A program made the position numbers and the translations under genes. Shown here one piece after another: positions 28,325-38,454 of a stretch of DNA of 64,000 nucleotides (position 1 is its first letter; the number at the start of each line of letters is the position of its first letter). Below the pieces are notes generated by a model that worked only from the letters and a program-made list of their open reading frames with translations, did no database searches and was not told the DNA's origin. This DNA comes from Umezawaea endophytica. GTDB taxonomy: Bacteria; Actinomycetota; Actinomycetes; Mycobacteriales; Pseudonocardiaceae. The DNA lies in contig NZ_JANYMP010000007.1 in assembly GCF_025061645.1 (NCBI RefSeq), positions 106,383 to 170,382 on the forward strand, given 5' to 3'.

Positions 28325-29281
28325 TCAGCGGTTGTAGGCGGGCATGGGGCCGCGCAGGGCGGCCCCGACCTCGTCGCACGCGGCCAGCACGTCGGCGGGC
28401 AGCGGACCGGCGGAGGCGGCCTCGACGTTGGCGACGAGGTGTTCGACGCGAGAGCCGCCGAGCAGCACCGAGCCGACGTCGGCCTGGCTGAGCAGCCACC
28501 GCAGCGACAGCTCGGTCAACGGGATCCCGGCGCCCGCGGCGACACCCGACAGCGCGGAGACGGCCGCGAACAGCCGGTCGTCCCAATACCGCTGGGTGTA
28601 CATCGCGGCCAGCCGGGAGTCTCCGAACCGGCCCTCGCTCGGCTTCTCCTCGAACGTGTGCCTGCCGGTCAGCAGTCCACCGCCGAGCGGGTTGTAGACG
28701 ACGGTGAGCAGCCCCGTCACGCGGGCGAACTCCAGGTACTCGTCCTCGACCCGACGGGCCAGCAGGTTGTAGAGCTGCTGCGCCGCGACGGGCCGGGGCA
28801 CGCCCTGCGCGTCGCACTCGCGGTTCAGCTCGGCAATCTGCCACGCGGCGAAGTTGGACACCCCGATCGCGGAGATGAGCCCTTCGGCGATCGACTTGCC
28901 GAGTTCGGCGACCGTCTCGGCGATCGGCGTCGACCGGTCGGGCTGGTGAAGGTAGAAGAGGTCGACGTGGTCGACGCCGAGCCGCTCCAGGCTGCCCCGC
29001 AGGGACTTGCGCAGGCCGATCGCGGACAGCGGACCGACGCCCTCGGCGTCGGGGTGCGGGATGCCGGCCTTGGTCGCCAGCACGACGCGGTCGCGGCGGC
29101 CGGGCAGCAGGCCGCGCAGGATCTCCTCCGACGCGCCGCCCGCGTAGCCGTTCGCCGTGTCGACACCGGTGATCCCGGCGTCGAGCGCCGCGTCCAGCAT
29201 GCGGCGCGCGCCGTCGGCGTCGACGGTGTCGCCGAACGTCATCGTGCCCAGCACCAGCCGGGACAGGGCGAACGAGCTCAC
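28325..29281 (-). CDS. Aldo/keto reductase
   Basis: A 318-residue NADPH-dependent TIM-barrel oxidoreductase. The tetrad is visible as Asp and Tyr in 'GVDTANGYAGGASEEIL', Lys in 'VVLATKAG' and His in 'DLFYLHQPD'. The C-terminal 'SVLLGGSRVEHL' binds the cofactor. It resembles the YajO/oxidoreductase subgroup that handles sugar or sugar-acid carbonyls. GTG 29281 overlaps the upstream ATPase gene stop. It belongs to the catabolic half of the transport operon. Confidence 0.92.
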   Translation of the reverse strand: MSSFALSRLVLGTMTFGDTVDADGARRMLDAALDAGITGVDTANGYAGGASEEILRGLLPGRRDRVVLATKAGIPHPDAEGVGPLSAIGLRKSLRGSLERLGVDHVDLFYLHQPDRSTPIAETVAELGKSIAEGLISAIGVSNFAAWQIAELNRECDAQGVPRPVAAQQLYNLLARRVEDEYLEFARVTGLLTVVYNPLGGGLLTGRHTFEEKPSEGRFGDSRLAAMYTQRYWDDRLFAAVSALSGVAAGAGIPLTELSLRWLLSQADVGSVLLGGSRVEHLVANVEAASAGPLPADVLAACDEVGAALRGPMPAYNR

Positions 29282-30105
29282 GCGGGGATCTCCTCTCGGG
29301 CCGTGACGAACGAGCGCGGCTTGCGCCCGGTCATGGCGGTGGGGTCGAGCGCGGCCCGGCGCAGCGCACGGGTGTACGGCTCCTTGGGAGCGGCCAGCAC
29401 GTCTGCGGTGGGACCGGACTCGACGACCTTGCCCGCTCTCATCACCACCACGTCCGCGCTGATCTGCCTCACCACGCCCAGGTTGTGCGAGATGACGATG
29501 CAGGTCAGGCCGGTGTCGCGCTGGAGGTCCTCCAGCAGCGCCAGCACCTGCGCCTGCACAGACACGTCGAGCGCACTGGTCGCCTCGTCGCACACCAGCA
29601 GTTCGGGGCTGCTGGCCAGTGCCCGCGCGATGCCGATCCGCTGGCGCTGGCCGCCGGAGAACTCGGCGGGGCGCCGCTCCAGCGCGCTGGACGGCAGGCC
29701 GACCCGGTCGATCAGCTCGGCGGCCTGCGCCCTGCGGTCCGCCGCGGAGCGGACTCCGCGCAGCCGCAGCGGTTCCGCGACGATGTCCTGCGCGTTCAGG
29801 TGCGGGTCCAGGGAGGCGTACGGGTCCTGGAACACCATCTGCACGCGTGAGCGCAGCGGGCGCATGCGCCGTTCCGACAGGCCCGCGATGTCCGTGCCGT
29901 CCAGGAGGATCTCGCCGGAACTCGGCTTGAGCAGCCGCACGATCGCGCAGGCGATGGTGGACTTGCCGCAACCGGATTCACCGACAATGGCCAGCGTCCG
30001 GCCCCGGTGGACGGTGAAGCTGACGTTGTCGACCGCGCGGAACGAACCGCCGCGGACGTGGTACTCCACCACGAGGTCGCGCACGTCGAGCAGCGGAGTG
30101 GTCAT
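29278..30105 (-). CDS. ABC importer ATPase, OppF/DppF type
   Basis: A 275-residue ATPase with Walker A '[11 protein letters not shown]', Q-loop '[12 protein letters not shown]', signature '[12 protein letters not shown]', and Walker B '[18 protein letters not shown]'. The peptide/nickel importer subfamily is evident from 'DPYASLDP' and the C-terminal 'PKEPYTRAL'. ATG 30105 overlaps the stop of the OppD-type gene. Together with that ATPase, two permeases and a solute-binding protein it forms a complete importer. The substrate is probably not a peptide, given the sugar-acid enzymes in the same operon. Confidence 0.95.
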
Positions 30106-30929
30106 CGGTCTCCTCCGGCGGTGTCGTCCTCGTCCCACGGCCCCAGCACGGGCACGGCGGACAGCAGCTTGCGGGTGTACTCGTGGCTCGGGTGGTCCAC
30201 GACGGACTCGACGTCGCCGGACTCGACGAACCGGCCGTCGCGCATCACGTGGATGCGGTCGGACACCAGCCGCGCCACGCCCAGGTCGTGGGTGATCATC
30301 AGGATGCCGATGCCGGTGCTCTCCTGGAGTTCCAGCAGCAGCCCCAGGATTCCGGCCTGGACGGTCACGTCCAGCGCGCTGGTCGGCTCGTCGGCCACCA
30401 GCAGCCGGGGCTCCCCCGCCAGCGCGATGGCGATCAGCACCCGCTGGAGCATCCCGCCGGACAACTGGTGCGGGTAGCGACCGAGCTGGTCGGCCGAGCG
30501 CGGCACGTGGACCAGGTCCAGCAGTTCCACGGCCCGCGCCTCGGCAGCGTGCTTGGCGAGGTCCGGCTTGCGCAGCCGCACGGCCTCGACCAGTTGCCGC
30601 CCGATCGTGTGCACCGGGCTGAGCGCGGTCATGGGGTCCTGCGGGATCAGCGACACGGTCCGCCCGCGCACACCGCGCAGGGCCTTGGGATCGGCGATGA
30701 CGTCGGTGTCGCCGAAGCGGACCGAGCCCGACAGGACGGCCAGGTCGTCCGGGAGCAGGCCGAGCACGGCCATCGCCGTGGTCGACTTGCCCGAGCCGGA
30801 CTCACCGATGACGGTCACGGTCTCGCCTTCGCCGATGGTGAAGCTGACGCCGTCCACGGCGCGGACGACACCCCCGGCGGTGATCAGCTCGACCTGGAGG
30901 TCCTCGACGTCCAGCAGCGCGGTGCTCAC
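30102..30929 (-). CDS. ABC importer ATPase, OppD/DppD type
   Basis: A 275-residue ATPase with Walker A '[11 protein letters not shown]', Q-loop '[13 protein letters not shown]', signature '[15 protein letters not shown]', and Walker B '[18 protein letters not shown]'. The C-terminal '[15 protein letters not shown]' is typical of the Opp/Dpp family. GTG 30929 overlaps the permease stop in a GTGA. It is the partner of the OppF-type ATPase in the same operon. Confidence 0.95.
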
Positions 30930-31849
30930 GAGGTGCTCGCCTTCCGACGGCGCGCGCGGTCGCGGAGGCCGTCTCCCAGCAGGTTCACGCCCACGACGAG
31001 GGCGACGATGACGAGGCCGGGCAGGGTGACCATCCACCAGGAGGTGGTGATGTAGTCCTGCCCGTCGGAGATGATCCGACCCCAGGTGGCGAACGGCCGC
31101 TGCGGACCGGCGCCGAGGTAGGACAGCGCGCTCTCCAGCAGCACCGCCTGCGCCAGCAGCAGGAGCACGACCAGGCTGGCCTGCTTCACGACGTTCGGCA
31201 GCACGTGCCGCAGCAGGATCGCGAACCGGTGCAGGCCCAGCACCCTGGCGGCGGCCACGTATGGCTTCTCCCGCTCCACCAGCACGAGCGACCGGGTCAG
31301 CCGGGCGACCTCGGGCCACTGCGCGATGGCGATGACGAACGTGATGACCGGGATGGACGGTCCGAACAGCGCCACCACGAGGAGCAGCATCATCAGCAGC
31401 GGCAACGACAACTGCGCTTCCAGCAGCCGCGACACGACCGTGTCGATCCACCCGCCGAAGTACCCGGCCGCCGCGCCGAGCACGACGCCGATCACACCGG
31501 ACACCACGACCGCGAGCAGGCCGACGAGCAGCGACACCTGGCCGCCGTGCAGGACGCGGGACAGCAGGTCGCGGCCGAGCTGGTCGGTGCCGAACAGGTG
31601 CCCGTCGGTGAACGGCGCCAGGCGGCGGCTCGCGAGGTCCTGCTGGTCGGGGCCGGGCAGCGGCAGCACGCGGGCCAGCGCCACGGGGATGACGACGATC
31701 AGCGTGCAGACCAGTCCGGCCCACAGCTTGAGCTTCGAGCCCCGGCGCTGGCGGGTGACCTTGGCGCGGGCCAGGTGCTTCGCGGTGACGGCGCTGGGTC
31801 TGGGCTCGGACCGCTGCACGCGGGCCGGTCCGGGGTGGGTGGTGCTCAC
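30926..31849 (-). CDS. ABC importer permease, DppC type
   Basis: A 307-residue membrane protein. It has one N-terminal helix (about residues 42-62), a conserved 'HLFGTDQLGRDLLSRVLHGGQVSLLVG' region, and five more helices. The EAA loop is 'REKPYVAAARVLGLHRFAILLRHVLPNV'. The layout matches DppC/OppC permeases. GTG 31849 overlaps the DppB-type stop. A basic N-terminal tail of about 35 residues is longer than usual and lies in the cytoplasm. Confidence 0.93.
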   Translation of the reverse strand: MSTTHPGPARVQRSEPRPSAVTAKHLARAKVTRQRRGSKLKLWAGLVCTLIVVIPVALARVLPLPGPDQQDLASRRLAPFTDGHLFGTDQLGRDLLSRVLHGGQVSLLVGLLAVVVSGVIGVVLGAAAGYFGGWIDTVVSRLLEAQLSLPLLMMLLLVVALFGPSIPVITFVIAIAQWPEVARLTRSLVLVEREKPYVAAARVLGLHRFAILLRHVLPNVVKQASLVVLLLLAQAVLLESALSYLGAGPQRPFATWGRIISDGQDYITTSWWMVTLPGLVIVALVVGVNLLGDGLRDRARRRKASTS

Positions 31850-32781
31850 GCGGACACCTTCTTCCCGAGGCGCACCCGCGGGTCGAGCAGCGGGTAGGCG
31901 AGGTCGACCAGGAGTTGGACGGTGACGGCGAGCGCCGCCGTGACGAGGACGGTGGCCTGGATCAGCGGGTAGTCGCGCGTTTCGAGCGCGCGGACCACCA
32001 GCGAGCCGACCCCCGGCCAGGCGAACACGACCTCCACGACGACCACGCCGTTCAGCATGGACGCGAAGCGCGTTCCCAGCGCGGTGACGACCGGGATGGA
32101 CGAGTTGGTCATGGCGTACCGCCACACCAGCGCCCGTTCCGACACCCCGCGCGAGCGGGCGACCGTGAGGTAGGGGGCGGTGAGGTTCTTGGCCATCTCG
32201 CTGCGCACCAACCGCGAGATGAGGGCGATCTGGAGGATGGCGACCGTGAGCGCGGGCAGCACCAGGCCGCCCCACGTGGCGAAGCCGGACGCCGGGAGCA
32301 CCGGGATCAGCACCGCGAAGACCGTGAGCAGCATGATGCCGCTCCAGAAGTCCGGCATGGACTGACCGGCGATCGTCACGACGTTCGCGCCGAGCTCGCG
32401 GGTCGTGTCGGCGCGGCGGGCCATCCACACGCCCAGCGGGACGGACACGACCGTGGTGATCAGGATCGCGGCGACCGCGAGGGTGATGGTGAACGGCAGC
32501 CGCTCCAGCACCACGTCCAGCGCGGGCGAGCGGAAGGAGTAGCTCGTACCGAGGTCGCCGGTGAGGATGCCCTTGAGAAACAGCAGGTACTGCTCGACCA
32601 CGGACCGGTCGAGGCCGAAGGAGGCGCGGATCTTCGCCAGGTCCTCGGTCGTGGCGAGCGGACCCGCGTACGCGGCGGCCGGGTCGCCGGGCGCCATGCG
32701 GATCAGCACGAACACGGTGGAGATCGTGAGGAACACCGTGAGGACGCTCTGGCCGAGGCGCTTGAACAGGTAGGGCGCCAC
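31846..32781 (-). CDS. ABC importer permease, DppB type
   Basis: A 311-residue membrane protein with six predicted helices. It opens with 'YLFKRLGQSVLTVFLTISTVFVLIRMAPGDPAAAYAG', typical of DppB/OppB. An EAA loop is seen in 'YLTVARSRGVSERALVWRYAMTNSSIPV'. GTG 32781 is preceded by GGAGGG and lies three bases after the solute-binding protein stop. It pairs with the DppC-type permease to form the channel. Confidence 0.93.
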   Translation of the reverse strand: MAPYLFKRLGQSVLTVFLTISTVFVLIRMAPGDPAAAYAGPLATTEDLAKIRASFGLDRSVVEQYLLFLKGILTGDLGTSYSFRSPALDVVLERLPFTITLAVAAILITTVVSVPLGVWMARRADTTRELGANVVTIAGQSMPDFWSGIMLLTVFAVLIPVLPASGFATWGGLVLPALTVAILQIALISRLVRSEMAKNLTAPYLTVARSRGVSERALVWRYAMTNSSIPVVTALGTRFASMLNGVVVVEVVFAWPGVGSLVVRALETRDYPLIQATVLVTAALAVTVQLLVDLAYPLLDPRVRLGKKVSA

Positions 32782-32784
32782 CGG

Positions 32785-34362
32785 TCAGCCCTCCAGTCGC
32801 GCGGACGCGAGGTCGTAGGAGTTGGTGGGCGCGAGCGAGATGTCGCCGACCCGGTCGCGGCTGGCGAGCACGGCGTTCGGCACGAACGCCCACAGGCACG
32901 GCCAGGTCGCCCACACGGCCTTCTGCGCGTCGCTGAGCAGTTGCGCGCGGCGGGCCGCGTCGGGTTCGGCGGAGGCGTCGGCGATCTGCGCGGCGATCGA
33001 CGGGACCACGTAGCCCTGGTAGGTGTCGCGGGTCTGCTCCTTCTCCGGGGTGCCCGCGTACATGCCTTGCAGGATGCTCACGGCCAGGCCCGTCGGGCTG
33101 GAGAAGCCGTTGCCGAGCACGTCCCAGTCGCCCGCCTTGCCCTGCCGCCACGACAGGATGTCGCCGCCGGGCTCGAACTGCTGGAGCGTGGAGCGCACGC
33201 CGACCTGGCCGAGCATCTGGAGCACGGCCTCCATGACGGAGGTGTCGCTGGCGAACTCGCCGCTCTCCCAGATGATCTTCAGTTCGAGGTCGCGCACGCC
33301 CAGCGCGTCGAGCCGCTGCTTGGCCTGCTGGGGGTCGTAGACGTACTCGCCCGTCTTGACCGCGCCCTCCAGCCCGGTCGGCACGACGCCGTCCGCCTGG
33401 GTGACCGAGCCGACGAGGACGTCCTGGACCAGCGCCCGGCCGTCGATGGCGTAGGTCAACGCCTCGCGCACCCTCGGGTCGGCCAGCGGGTGGCCCTGCG
33501 GCTTGCGGAAGTTGTAGAAGAGCTGGTTGATGCGGGTGCTCGGGGTGCGGGTGATCCGCACGCCCGGCAGGCCAGCGAGCTGGTCGGCCGAGTCCGGGGT
33601 GATCGAGTCGATCACGTCGACCTCGCCGCTGCGCAGCGACACGACCCGGCTCGACTCCTCGGGCACGAACCGGACCTGCACGTTCGGCACGCGCGGCTTG
33701 GTGCCCCAGTAGTTCTCGTTGACCGCGAGGGAGTAGTTGCCGGTGCCGCGGTTGCCGGAGCGCATCACGTACGGGCCGGAGCCGATGCCCTCCTGCAACT
33801 CCTCGGGGCGGTTGCTCCCCGAAGGGGTGACCAGGATGTTCGCCATCAGGTAGTCCAGGACCGGGATGGGCCGCTCGGTCTGGAGCACGAACGTGGCGTC
33901 GTCGACCGGCACGACGGTGGGGAATTCGGAGAAGAAGCCCGCGATGAACGACCCGTTCACCTGCTGGTACATCTCCAGCGCGGTGGTGACGTCCTGGACC
34001 GTGACCGGCGAGCCGTCCGAGTAGCGCACACCGTCGCGCAGGTGCACCGTCCACTGCGTGGGCGCTGTCAGCTCGAACCGGTCGGCCAGCACGAGCCGGG
34101 GCTTCAGGTCCTGGCCGACCATCGTGAGCGCCTGGCGGACGCCGCGCTGGACGGTGACGGCCGCGTCGAACTGGTTCAGCTTGTTGTCCAGGCTGATCAG
34201 CGAGCGGTTGAGCGCGAGGGTCAGTGTGCCGGGACCGGGGGTCCCGGTGGGACCGGCGCACGCGTTCAGCAGCGGGCCCAGCGTCACGCCCGCTCCGGCT
34301 ATCGCACCCCATCTCAACAGGGTGCGGCGGGAGAGCTCCGGGCCGCTTCCGGATCGGGTCAT
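32785..34362 (-). CDS. Solute-binding lipoprotein of ABC importer (SBP family 5)
   Basis: A 525-residue extracytoplasmic binding protein. The N-terminus carries a twin-arginine-like 'SRRTLLRWGAIAGAGVTLG' and a lipobox-like 'LLNACAG' (Cys near residue 36), so it may be a Tat-exported lipoprotein. The body shows SBP_bac_5 features: 'WTVHLRDGVRYSDGSPVTVQDV', 'GSGPYVM', 'VREALTYAIDGRALV'. ATG 34362 has GAGAGG upstream. It is the first gene of the nine-gene operon, divergent from the kinase-PdxA fusion. The ligand is unknown. Confidence 0.93.
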   Translation of the reverse strand: MTRSGSGPELSRRTLLRWGAIAGAGVTLGPLLNACAGPTGTPGPGTLTLALNRSLISLDNKLNQFDAAVTVQRGVRQALTMVGQDLKPRLVLADRFELTAPTQWTVHLRDGVRYSDGSPVTVQDVTTALEMYQQVNGSFIAGFFSEFPTVVPVDDATFVLQTERPIPVLDYLMANILVTPSGSNRPEELQEGIGSGPYVMRSGNRGTGNYSLAVNENYWGTKPRVPNVQVRFVPEESSRVVSLRSGEVDVIDSITPDSADQLAGLPGVRITRTPSTRINQLFYNFRKPQGHPLADPRVREALTYAIDGRALVQDVLVGSVTQADGVVPTGLEGAVKTGEYVYDPQQAKQRLDALGVRDLELKIIWESGEFASDTSVMEAVLQMLGQVGVRSTLQQFEPGGDILSWRQGKAGDWDVLGNGFSSPTGLAVSILQGMYAGTPEKEQTRDTYQGYVVPSIAAQIADASAEPDAARRAQLLSDAQKAVWATWPCLWAFVPNAVLASRDRVGDISLAPTNSYDLASARLEG

Positions 34363-34538
34363 CGTCGACCTCTCACAGTGCTCGGGGGATTCGGCGCTGC
34401 GGCCCTGCACGGCCGGGGTCACCGGTGTTACCCGAGCCACAGTGGCACGGTCTGCACGTTTCGCGCAAGTCCTCTGGCATTTTCAGCGCGTTCTGTGCAA
34501 TCCTTTCGTCACAGCGTTGCCGAGGAGGTGGGTCAGAA

Positions 34539-36710
34539 GTGCCGAATGTCCTTGTTGTCGCTGATGATCTGTCCGGGGCGGCCGAGGTGGCGTCCGTGAT
34601 CCCGATGCGCACAACGCGCAACCTGGTGCTGCTCGGCGTGGACGCCACGTTGCCGGTGGATGACCGGGAGGTGATCGTCGTGGACCTCGACACGCGCTCC
34701 GGGCCCGCTCCGGCTGCCGAGGCGGAGACCGCGCGGGCCGTCGCCACCCTCGGCGCGTCCCGGCAGGTGTTCGTCAAGGTCGACTCGCAGCTCCGCGGCC
34801 ACGTCGCCGCGGCCGTGCGCGGCGCGGGCGGCTTCGCCGTCGTGTGCCCCGCGCTCCCCCGTCTCGGCCGGGTCGTGCGCGGCGGCGTCGTGCACCTGGA
34901 CGGCGTGCCGCTGCACGAGACGGACGCGTGGCGGGTCGAGCCCGTGCCACCACCGCGGTCGATCGCCGACCTGCTCGCGCTCGAACCCGTCCGGGTGATT
35001 CCGCTGACCGAGGTGCGCGGCCCCGAACTGGTCGCACGGTTGCGCGCGATCCGCGCGGAGGGCGCCGTCGCCGTGTGCGACGCGGAGACCGACGCCGACC
35101 TCGACCTGATCGCGGCAGCCGGGACGTCGATCAGAGCCGTGCTGGTGGGATCAGCCGGGCTCGCCGCCGCGCTCGGCCGCGAAGACCACTCGTTCGTGGA
35201 GGTTCCCGCGCCCGGTGACGGCGTGCTTGTCGTCGTCGGCTCGGCGGCGGCCTCGGCGCAGGTCGAGCACCTCCGAGCGGCGGGCGCGCACGTCGTCGCG
35301 CTGAACCCGACCACGTTGGCCCCGGTTCTCCCCCACCCGGCAGACCTGGTCGTCCTGACCATCGACGCCGCCGCCGGGATCGTGCCCGGAGCGGCCCGCA
35401 CACTGGTCGCCGCGCTCGCCGACACGGCCGCGGCAGCCGCGCGCTCGTCCACCTCCGACCTCGTCCTCACCGGAGGCGAGACCGCCCGAGCGGTCCTCGA
35501 CCGGCTCGGCGTCACCCGGCTCACCGTCCACGGCCCCCTCCCCGGCCACCACGGGGCGGTCCTCAGCACCACACCCGACGGCCGCAGGGTCGTCACCCGG
35601 CCGGGCAGCTTCGGCACACCCGGCTCACTCACCGACATCGCGGCCGCGCTGCGGTCCGACCACGAACGCCACGGAGGCAGTCACGTGAGCACCACCAGTC
35701 CCGACACCCGCCCGTACATCGCCGTGACCATGGGCGACGGCGCGGGCATCGGCCCAGAGGTCGTCGTCGGCGCGCTGCTCGACGAAGGCCTCGCCACCGA
35801 GTGCCGTCCGGTGGTGGTCGGCGACGCCGCCCGGTTGCGACTGGGCGCGGAGGCGCTCGGCGTGACCGCCGACGTCGTCACGGTGGAGTCGGTCGAGGAC
35901 GCCGAGTTCGTGCCCGGCCGGGTCAACGTGATCGACCTCGGGCTGCTGCCCGCCGACCTCCAGTGGGGCGAGCTGTCCGCCGTCGCGGGCGACGCCGCGT
36001 TCCACTACATCCGCGTGGCGGCCGAGTTGGCGATGTCCGGCGAGGTGCAGGGCATCTGCACGGCGCCGCTGAACAAGGAGGCCCTGCACGCCGGCGGCCA
36101 CGTCTACCCCGGCCACACCGAACTCCTCGCGCACCTGACCGGGACCGAGGAGGTGTCGATGATGCTGTCGACGCCCAAGGTCAAGGTCATCCACGTGACC
36201 ACGCACATCGGCCTGGTGGACGCCATCCGCAAGATCGAGCCCGGTCTCGTCGAGCGCACCGTCCGGCGCGGTCACGAGGCGCTGGTCCGCGCGGGCGTCC
36301 CGGCACCCAAGATCGGCGTGTGCGCGATCAACCCGCACGCGGGCGAGAACGGCCTGTTCGGCCAGGGCGAGGAAGCGGAGAAGATCACGCCCGCCATCGA
36401 GGTGCTCCAGGCGGCGGGCATCGACGCGCGCGGCCCGCTGCCCGCCGACACCGCGTTCTTCCTCGCCGGGCGCGGCGACTACGACCTCATCGTCGCGATG
36501 TACCACGACCAGGGCCACGGCCCGGTCAAGGTGCTCGGCATCGAGGCGGGCGTCAACATCACCGTCGGCCTCCCGGTGATCCGCACGTCGGTCGACCACG
36601 GCACGGCGTTCGACATCGCGGGCAAGGGTGTGGCGGACATCCGCAGCATGATCGAGGCGCTGCACCAGGCGGCCCGCATGTCGCCCAGCCCCGCCGCGGT
36701 GCCCGCCTGA
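34539..36710 (+). CDS. Fused four-carbon sugar-acid kinase and PdxA-type dehydrogenase
   Basis: A 723-residue ORF joining two enzymes. Residues about 1-375 resemble the DUF1537 four-carbon acid sugar kinases (DtnK/OtnK/DenD group): 'VVADDLSGAAEVA', 'VFVKVDSQLRGHV', 'LVLTGGETARAVL'. Residues about 390-715 are PdxA/PdxA2-like: 'VTMGDGAGIGPE', 'CTAPLNKEALHAGGHVYPGHTE', 'NPHAGENGLFG', 'MYHDQGHGPVK'. Such pairs phosphorylate and then oxidise threonate- or erythronate-like acids. No stop separates them. A GTG at 35685 with GGAGG seven bases upstream could also give a free dehydrogenase. GTG 34539 is the likely start after AGGAGG. Divergent from the importer operon. Confidence 0.88.
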   Translation: MPNVLVVADDLSGAAEVASVIPMRTTRNLVLLGVDATLPVDDREVIVVDLDTRSGPAPAAEAETARAVATLGASRQVFVKVDSQLRGHVAAAVRGAGGFAVVCPALPRLGRVVRGGVVHLDGVPLHETDAWRVEPVPPPRSIADLLALEPVRVIPLTEVRGPELVARLRAIRAEGAVAVCDAETDADLDLIAAAGTSIRAVLVGSAGLAAALGREDHSFVEVPAPGDGVLVVVGSAAASAQVEHLRAAGAHVVALNPTTLAPVLPHPADLVVLTIDAAAGIVPGAARTLVAALADTAAAAARSSTSDLVLTGGETARAVLDRLGVTRLTVHGPLPGHHGAVLSTTPDGRRVVTRPGSFGTPGSLTDIAAALRSDHERHGGSHVSTTSPDTRPYIAVTMGDGAGIGPEVVVGALLDEGLATECRPVVVGDAARLRLGAEALGVTADVVTVESVEDAEFVPGRVNVIDLGLLPADLQWGELSAVAGDAAFHYIRVAAELAMSGEVQGICTAPLNKEALHAGGHVYPGHTELLAHLTGTEEVSMMLSTPKVKVIHVTTHIGLVDAIRKIEPGLVERTVRRGHEALVRAGVPAPKIGVCAINPHAGENGLFGQGEEAEKITPAIEVLQAAGIDARGPLPADTAFFLAGRGDYDLIVAMYHDQGHGPVKVLGIEAGVNITVGLPVIRTSVDHGTAFDIAGKGVADIRSMIEALHQAARMSPSPAAVPA

Positions 36711-36756: not shown

Positions 36757-37539
36757 ATGGCGGGGATGCGGACGAACGACCGTCGCGAAGAGATCGTCCG
36801 GATGGCGACGACGACGGGGCTCGCCAGCGTGGACGAGCTCGCCATCACGTTCGAGGTCACAGCGTCGACGATCCGCCGCGACCTCGCGCGACTGACCGAC
36901 GAGGGCAGGGTGGCGCGCACGTACGGCGGCGCGATAGCCCTGATGGTGCACCAGGAGCTGTCGGTGCGGCAGCGGATCCTGGAGGCGTTCGCCGAGAAGG
37001 CCGCCATCGCGAAGTGGGCGGCCTCGGAGGTCAAGTCCGGCGAGACGGTCCTGCTGGACTCGGGCACGACCGTCGGCGCGCTCGCGCACGAGCTGCGGAA
37101 CGTGCCGAAGCTGACCGTGGCCACCACCGGGCTGACCGCGTTGCAGGAACTGGCGGGTTCCGAGTCGGTGCACGTGGAGTGCCTCGGCGGCACGCTGCGG
37201 CACCTCAGCCAGGGGTTCGTCGGCCCGCTGACCGAGGCCGCGCTGGAACGCATGACGTTCGACCGCGCCTACCTCGGCGCGGACGCCGTCACGCCGGAGA
37301 ACGGCCTGTGCGAGGCGGACCTCCAGCAGACCAGGCTGAAGGAGCTGATGATGCGCCGGGCGGACGAGGTGTACGTGCTGGCCCACGCCGAGAAGCTCGG
37401 CCGCAGCCCGTTCCACTCGTGGGTCCGCATGCCGTCCCGCTGGACCCTGGTCACCGACGACAGCGTCGACCCCCGCCTGGTCGACCAGTTCACCAAGCGC
37501 GGCGCGCAGGTGGTGACGGTGGACCCGAACGAGGACTAG
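36757..37539 (+). CDS. DeoR family transcriptional regulator
   Basis: A 260-residue repressor. The N-terminal winged helix (residues 8-60: 'NDRREEIVRMATTTG', 'VDELAITFEVTASTIRRDLARL', 'GRVARTYGGA') is classic DeoR. The rest is the sugar-phosphate-sensing DeoRC domain with 'VLLDSGTTVGALAHEL' and 'ADAVTPENGLCEADLQQTRLK'. It follows the kinase-PdxA gene by 46 bases, and probably controls that gene and the divergent importer operon. DeoR proteins usually sense a phosphorylated pathway intermediate. Confidence 0.93.
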   Translation: MAGMRTNDRREEIVRMATTTGLASVDELAITFEVTASTIRRDLARLTDEGRVARTYGGAIALMVHQELSVRQRILEAFAEKAAIAKWAASEVKSGETVLLDSGTTVGALAHELRNVPKLTVATTGLTALQELAGSESVHVECLGGTLRHLSQGFVGPLTEAALERMTFDRAYLGADAVTPENGLCEADLQQTRLKELMMRRADEVYVLAHAEKLGRSPFHSWVRMPSRWTLVTDDSVDPRLVDQFTKRGAQVVTVDPNED

Positions 37540-37620: not shown

Positions 37621-38454
37621 ATGAACGAGAACGAGTGGTTGGCCGCGCGGTTCGAGGAGCACCGAGACCGGCTGCGCGCGGTGGCGTACCGGATGCTCGG
37701 CTCGGCGGCCGACGCGGACGACGCCGTCCAGGACGCCTGGCTGCGGCTGAGCCGGTCCGACGCGGACGAGATCGACAACCTCGGCGGATGGCTGACCACC
37801 GTCGTCGCCCGTGAGTGCCTGCACGTGCTGCGCTCCCGCCGACGCCGCCGGGAGGACCCGTTCACCGCGCACCTGCCCGACCTGGTCGTCATCCCGGACG
37901 GGGACCTCGACCCCGAGCAGGAGGCGGTGCTGGCCGACTCGGTGAGCCTGGCCCTGCTCGTCGTGCTCGACCAGCTCTCCCCCGCCGAACGGGTGGCGTT
38001 CGTGCTGCACGACCTGTTCGGCCTGCCCTTCGACGAGGTGGCCCGCGTCGCGGGCCGCACCCCGGCTGCCGCGCGGCAGCTCGCCAGCCGGGCCCGACGC
38101 CGGGTGCACGACGCCCGGATCCCACCGCCTGGCCAGGATCTGGCGCGCAAGAGGCAGGTCGTCCGCGCCTTCTACGCAGCCGCGTGGACCGGCGACTTCG
38201 ACGCCCTGGTCCAGGTCCTCGACCCCGATGTCGTGCTGCGCACCGACTTCGGCGCCTCGCGGCCACCCACCGTCGTTCGCGGCGCGCACGCCGTGGCCAA
38301 GCAGGCGCGCGCGCCGCACGACGGTCAACTACGTCCTGTCCTGGTCAACGGCGCGATCGGAACGGTGATCACCCGCGGCGGGCGGCCGTTCTCCGTCATG
38401 GCCTTCACCGTGACGGAGGACAGGATCGTCAGGATCGACGTGGTCCGCTCTTGA
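37621..38454 (+). CDS. ECF41-like sigma factor with SnoaL-type C-terminal domain
   Basis: A 277-residue SigJ/ECF41-type sigma factor. Region 2 is 'HRDRLRAVAYRMLGSAADADDAVQDAWLRL', region 4 is 'LSPAERVAFVLHDLFGLPFDEVARVAGRTPAAARQLASRARRRV'. Residues about 175-277 form the SnoaL/NTF2-like extension that modulates these sigma factors. ECF41 factors normally have an adjacent carboxymuconolactone decarboxylase-, oxidoreductase- or epimerase-type target. Here an ankyrin gene and an SDR follow on opposite strands. A TGTCAC at 37559 could be the -35 of a self-recognised promoter, but its downstream element is poor. Confidence 0.88.
   Translation: MNENEWLAARFEEHRDRLRAVAYRMLGSAADADDAVQDAWLRLSRSDADEIDNLGGWLTTVVARECLHVLRSRRRRREDPFTAHLPDLVVIPDGDLDPEQEAVLADSVSLALLVVLDQLSPAERVAFVLHDLFGLPFDEVARVAGRTPAAARQLASRARRRVHDARIPPPGQDLARKRQVVRAFYAAAWTGDFDALVQVLDPDVVLRTDFGASRPPTVVRGAHAVAKQARAPHDGQLRPVLVNGAIGTVITRGGRPFSVMAFTVTEDRIVRIDVVRS

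Follow-up and report, generated by a model that had tools for sequence, protein, structure and literature searches.

A D-threonate kinase (DtnK) and a D-threonate-4-phosphate dehydrogenase (PdxA2) were reportedly described as separate enzymes by Zhang and colleagues in 2016. A DUF1537 kinase fused to a gene of the PLP pathway appears as an entry in Table 4 of Henry et al. (2016; PMC4921024), where a kinase function was predicted from it. Internal in-frame translation products have been reported for Cas11b (PMC11899642) and RpnS (PMC10327210). Gene overlaps of 4 nt are discussed as translational coupling devices (PMC10666635), and frame transitions between neighbouring genes have also been treated, in a paper whose main text does not include pdxA (PMC3711429).

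The locus described here lies in a 64,000-nucleotide stretch of the Umezawaea endophytica genome (the window, from the first letter of which all positions are counted). Sequence comparisons lead us to regard a working internal start in this fused kinase-dehydrogenase gene as probable, with both the fusion protein and free dehydrogenase as products. Gene fusions are usually read as two enzymes working in a 1:1 chain, and databases list only the long protein. This gene family offers a testable case in which two enzymes of a short catabolic pathway would occur in one chain together with a free partner.

The gene occupies one uninterrupted frame of 723 codons on the forward strand (34539-36710), beginning with GTG at 34539 and ending with a stop codon at 36708-36710. 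There is no stop codon between the kinase and dehydrogenase parts. Pfam domains of both enzymes were identified, each exceeding its curated cut-off: SBD_N (PF07005, residues 5-212, 123.1 bits against 25), NBD_C (PF17042, residues 277-362, 47.9 against 28.3 bits) and PdxA (PF04166, residues 421-711, 346.1 against 27 bits). The dehydrogenase part also passes TIGR00557 (354 against 290.35 bits). An in-frame fusion had been proposed in an earlier note on this DNA, and the frame and domains confirm it. The same note had pointed to a GTG with GGAGG at the junction; this is indeed present, with GGAGG at 35673-35677, a spacer of 7 nt and GTG at 35685-35687, which is in-frame codon 383. The gene is present in a single copy, as a search of the genome with the fused protein returned no other match.

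Both domains were modelled in a predicted structure of the fusion (mean pLDDT 81.7, pTM 0.54). The solved chain nearest to the dehydrogenase part is 4jqp, and 6e85, named as a D-threonate 4-phosphate dehydrogenase, is also among the nearest. For the kinase part the nearest solved chain, 4xfm, is more distant; its model additionally matches 5dmh, a DUF1537 structure. Compared with the kinases of 21 aligned fused relatives, the kinase part is compact and does not have stretches near residues 225-230 and 264-270 that are present in most of them. Its NBD_C match begins only at profile position 82.

Table 1. Features of the kinase-dehydrogenase locus and its neighbourhood, in window positions
Feature	Position	Strand	Basis or remarks
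ABC ATPase, weak oligo_HPY match	29278..30102	-	Pfam
ABC permease	30926..31852	-	Range submitted to Pfam; start provisional
ABC permease	31846..32781	-	Pfam
Solute-binding protein, family 5 (Opp/Dpp type), divergent	32785..34362	-	Pfam; start codon provisional
AGGAGG, Shine-Dalgarno match ahead of GTG 34539	34523..34528	+	Sequence reading
DUF1537-type four-carbon acid sugar kinase fused to PdxA2-type dehydrogenase	34539..36710	+	723 aa, calculated 73.8 kDa
Kinase part, codons 1-382, SBD_N and NBD_C	34539..35684	+	Pfam; fold match to DUF1537 crystal structures, e.g. 5dmh
Flexible linker, residues 375-387	35661..35699	+	pLDDT < 50 in predicted model
GGAGG, internal Shine-Dalgarno match	35673..35677	+	7 nt spacer to internal GTG
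Free dehydrogenase, predicted, from internal GTG	35685..36710	+	341 aa, calculated 35.2 kDa
DeoR-family regulator, probably same locus	36757..37539	+	Pfam; same order in 3/3 relatives inspected

The NCBIfam equivalog cut-offs for D-threonate kinase and 3-oxo-tetronate kinase were not reached (114.3 against 450 and 77.1 against 350 bits), and neither was that for D-threonate 4-phosphate dehydrogenase (PRK03371; 342.2 against 583 bits). Thus, the substrate is assigned only to the level of a four-carbon sugar acid. The pairing of enzyme families suggests that it may be D-threonate or a close relative. A role of the PdxA part in vitamin B6 synthesis was considered and rejected. A search of the same genome gave no match for PdxJ, the partner enzyme, and PdxS was found. 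Thus, the PdxA part is not needed for production of vitamin B6.

The gene order around the fusion is also found in Nonomuraea (L034), Klenkia (L038) and Paeniglutamicibacter (L047). In all three the DeoR gene is located 3' of the fusion, and a solute-binding protein of the same type with at least one permease (two checked in the Nonomuraea locus, one in each of the others) is encoded divergently from it. Fused gene, transporter and DeoR gene together look like a small catabolic unit comprising uptake, kinase-dehydrogenase and regulator. An apparent second ATPase gene directly upstream of the one in Table 1 was noticed on reading the translations. Downstream of the DeoR gene, at 37621-38454, is a gene for a sigma-70 family factor with a weak C-terminal match to SnoaL_2 that falls below the cut-off.

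We classified 166 related loci: 59 with a fused junction, 97 with two genes and 10 with no adjacent kinase. The sample is ordered by similarity to the fused query, so 59 of 166 is not a frequency, and fused refers to the junction only, with the kinase frame further upstream outside the criterion. The family search, with the window included, contributed 12 fused loci, 13 separate pairs and 5 loci without a kinase, and a scan of named genomes contributed 80 loci (23 fused, 52 separate and 5 without a kinase). The class search added 2 fused and 26 separate loci and the search of a second family 22 fused and 6 separate, none without a kinase in either case. Only fetched loci were classified. Matches of any kind, counted separately, were obtained for the family (98 of 297 genomes), the class (62 of 394) and the second family (71 of 295). 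Left out of the set were L001 to L004 (duplicates of the Umezawaea endophytica gene, L032 and L033) and L170 (PdxS). The earlier note took the two enzymes to be normally encoded by separate genes. This describes 97 of the 166 loci in this similarity-ranked sample and does not describe the 59 fused ones. Separate genes in relatives had been named there as evidence against the fusion; some relatives have them and others do not, and both states coexist.

A whole-protein search identified the fusion in all three searched genomes of the genus, that is, in both of those besides the genome studied here, where the earlier note had suggested looking for it. The next relative outside the genus (G162) is also fused, with 86.5% identity in the dehydrogenase. 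Among Actinomycetota, fusions occur in Nonomuraea, Streptomyces, Klenkia, Rhodococcus, Arthrobacter, Sinomonas, Frigoribacterium and others. Outside this phylum they were found in Burkholderia, Paraburkholderia, Salinicola and one Acidobacteriales MAG. Some individual loci are unusual. Two (L013, in genome G046, and L049) are fused at the junction and have a kinase frame that is interrupted upstream, by error or decay, with dehydrogenase and inner start intact. A fusion on a MAG contig labelled Bordetella parapertussis (L057) clusters with rows from Acidobacteriota (support 88 in the tree), and the label looks doubtful. In Cupriavidus sp. UYMMa02A (L099) the kinase match stops at residue 186, with a stop codon 475 nt before the dehydrogenase, and this kinase appears truncated or frame-shifted.

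The linker of every one of the 59 fused loci contains an in-frame ATG or GTG with a Shine-Dalgarno (SD) duplex of -5 kcal/mol or better, and -6 is reached in 49 of them. Counted over different junctions, an in-frame start with an SD of at least this strength (-5) is present in 49 of 49, compared with 226 of 882 equally long control stretches elsewhere in the same genes; the two remaining frames at the junction give 1 and 0 of 49. Cluster representatives at 85% identity have it in 18 of 18 cases (binomial test against the control rate, p 2e-11). No difference in SD strength was seen between fused genes and separate ones (p 0.09). The SD match falls in all three codon phases (30, 9 and 10 of the 49 junctions) and thus encodes different residue pairs. 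An A follows the internal start codon in 45 of 49 junctions, giving ATGA or GTGA. When SD energy alone was compared with synonymous recodings, p < 0.05 was obtained in 2 of 49 genes (Fisher p 5e-4, with kinship ignored); this test is weak, as the amino acids are to a large extent dictated by the SD match. In the predicted structure the internal start falls in the low-confidence linker, outside both domains. Thus, the short product would be a whole dehydrogenase.

Other established fusions served as controls, with RibBA and CoaBC each inspected in 30 genomes of the same family, at loci on their reported strands. An in-frame start with a comparable SD was present in the linker in 5 of 30 RibBA and 6 of 30 CoaBC loci. 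Of the loci with any start, 1 of 22 (RibBA) and 0 of 21 (CoaBC) have an unusually open one, as measured over 450 nt on each side compared with up to about 1000 for the kinase-dehydrogenase genes, so that the measures are close and not identical. We conclude from these counts that fusion linkers in these GC-rich genomes do not have the feature in general.

The mRNA around the internal start is predicted to be weakly folded, and this evidence is stronger than that from the SD test. The 50 nt at this position are within the 10% most open windows of their own gene in 46 of 49 fused genes. In a scan with 40-nt windows, mean folding energy is weakest where the offset from the start is 0 or +10; it is back at gene level within about 50 nt downstream and more gradually, over about 100 nt, upstream. 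Compared with their synonymous recodings, start windows are more open in 45 of 49 genes (p < 0.05 in 28 of 49; mean z +1.7), and 245 control windows give a mean z of -0.25 in the same test. Cluster representatives are positive in 16 of 18 cases (p 4e-5). For the Umezawaea endophytica gene p is 0.006 to 0.01, and for its two congeners 0.002 each. No excess over synonymous recoding was detected in the G162 locus (L005; z 0.1, p 0.49), L042 or L048. With downstream codons only, separate and fused genes do not differ in openness (z 1.0 and 1.2), and the inner start of the fused genes looks as if it were used no less than that of a genuine separate gene. The internal SD and start codon are thus conserved and appear to be under nucleotide-level constraint.

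These results bear on whether the fusion might be the sole product, with the internal SD and GTG an undecayed remnant of the ancestral second gene. In favour of a remnant, a start of this kind is found in most of the separate relatives (overlap of 4 nt in 69 of 97); some fusions also appear young on the tree, and there the start could be a leftover. We nevertheless consider this explanation unlikely, given that the start is retained in every one of the 59 fused loci, including clades in which every inspected member is fused (the genus together with G162, and three Nonomuraea). In these clades identity at four-fold sites is only 0.61 to 0.76, linker length and codon phase vary around it, and the openness described above is in 45 of 49 genes greater than expected from synonymous recoding. 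The earlier note had suggested that the locus may make both a fusion and a free dehydrogenase, and retention of the start in 59 of 59 loci, with signs of nucleotide-level selection, makes this the better supported of the options it offered.

There could also be three products, the additional one being a free kinase formed when ribosomes slip by one base in the linker and terminate at the TGA of GTGA, which overlaps the internal start. NTGA is present at the internal start in 45 of 49 different junctions, and the same TGA is the kinase stop in separate relatives. It may, however, simply be inherited, an A is common after start codons anyway, and no common slippery motif was noticed by eye in the aligned, hypervariable linkers; we regard a slip product as improbable. 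Finally, the genome is a draft of 65 contigs, and single-base errors are common at GC-rich junctions in general, so that the fused frame might be an error of sequencing or assembly, or else mark a gene heading for decay. This is almost certainly not so, as the same fusion is present in both other searched genomes of the genus (G001, a single contig, and G002), which were independently assembled, and conserved motifs are intact in both domains of the fused protein. Sequencing error was rejected on the former ground.

Production of both the fusion and free dehydrogenase thus remains our preferred reading. Probably the internal start is in use and under selection, giving a bifunctional protein of 73.8 kDa and a free dehydrogenase of 35.2 kDa; these calculated masses correct the estimates of about 73 and about 35 kDa in the earlier note. 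Ribosomes starting at 34539 would make one bifunctional chain. Its kinase part would phosphorylate a sugar acid of four carbons, either D-threonate or a closely related one, and its dehydrogenase part would convert the phosphorylated product to dihydroxyacetone phosphate by oxidative decarboxylation. Other ribosomes would start at GTG 35685, where the mRNA containing GGAGG is open, and would produce only the dehydrogenase. PdxA enzymes are dimers whose active site lies between the two subunits. Free dehydrogenase chains could pair with the dehydrogenase part of the fusion, and probably also with each other, which would place dehydrogenase in excess over kinase. Fusion would then very likely leave the ratio of the two enzymes unfixed, as the second one would also be made by itself. 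The sequences show the fused frame and its relatives, the retained and open internal start and, on a gene tree, the repeated interchange of states; initiation in the cell, its strength, the mixed dimers and the substrate are our inference.

How the fusion arose is a separate question. The earlier note had raised a recent fusion by stop loss; this is unsupported for the locus and was rejected, as the fusion is common to the three genomes of the genus and extends beyond it to G162. Kinase stop and dehydrogenase start overlap by exactly 4 nt in 69 of 97 separate loci, which places the two genes in different frames, so loss of the stop codon alone would not fuse such a pair. The typical event is instead likely to be a frame change in the kinase tail, upstream of a start that is left untouched. 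This is illustrated by two Frigoribacterium genomes, one with fused (L048) and one with separate genes (L061). Their 30-nt start regions are identical, and a one-base length difference in the linker sets the state; both are draft contigs, so a sequencing error in one of them is possible. In a tree of 128 dehydrogenases (37 fused, 91 separate, second-family loci left out), 14 changes of fused state are needed, 12 of them forced by well supported branches; this is a quick tree with no bootstrap, from which the direction of change was not inferred. On the basis of this gene tree, fused and separate states have been interchanged many times. The four nearest genomes are all fused, and the fusion event itself is therefore unseen for the lineage of Umezawaea endophytica.

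The fusion studied here would thus be derived from, and able to return to, a pair of genes overlapping by 4 bases, through a frame change in the kinase tail that leaves the start of the second gene untouched. More generally, and only tentatively, as we would sooner bet against this than for it, fusion may be a reversible state of an overlapping gene pair, in which one-base linker changes merge or split the frames and an inner start under constant selection ensures a supply of the free second enzyme. If this were true beyond the present family, many annotated bacterial fusions would also make their C-terminal enzyme alone, missed by annotation, and losing the free subunit would be no barrier to fusion. 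The family supplies many natural contrasts of fused and separate genes for study of the origin of fusions.

The type of fusion is already on record, and a conserved internal start was not found in print: no description of one in a DUF1537-PdxA fusion was found in the open-access literature, a scope outside which most subscription papers fall. The entry of Henry et al. (2016; PMC4921024) is of the same kind, joining a DUF1537 kinase to a PLP-pathway type gene. Its partner is named there only as PLP pathway, and the terms internal, start codon, stop codon and frameshift do not occur in the main text of that paper. DtnK and PdxA2 reportedly represent the same two enzyme families, catalyzing consecutive steps and encoded by adjacent genes; in contrast, here there is one reading frame with an internal start, and both equivalog cut-offs are missed. 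The separate relatives of the fused gene (69 of 97) have the arrangement considered as a coupling device in PMC10666635. There is no termination at the fused junction, however, and the inner start must therefore work by fresh initiation, unlike in 4-nt coupling. As far as described in the sources cited above, Cas11b and RpnS likewise have one frame and two products, the shorter from an internal in-frame start. Their inner products are small subunits or antitoxins, whereas here the predicted inner product is a complete metabolic enzyme inside a two-enzyme fusion and, unlike in those systems, relatives encode the two enzymes in separate genes.
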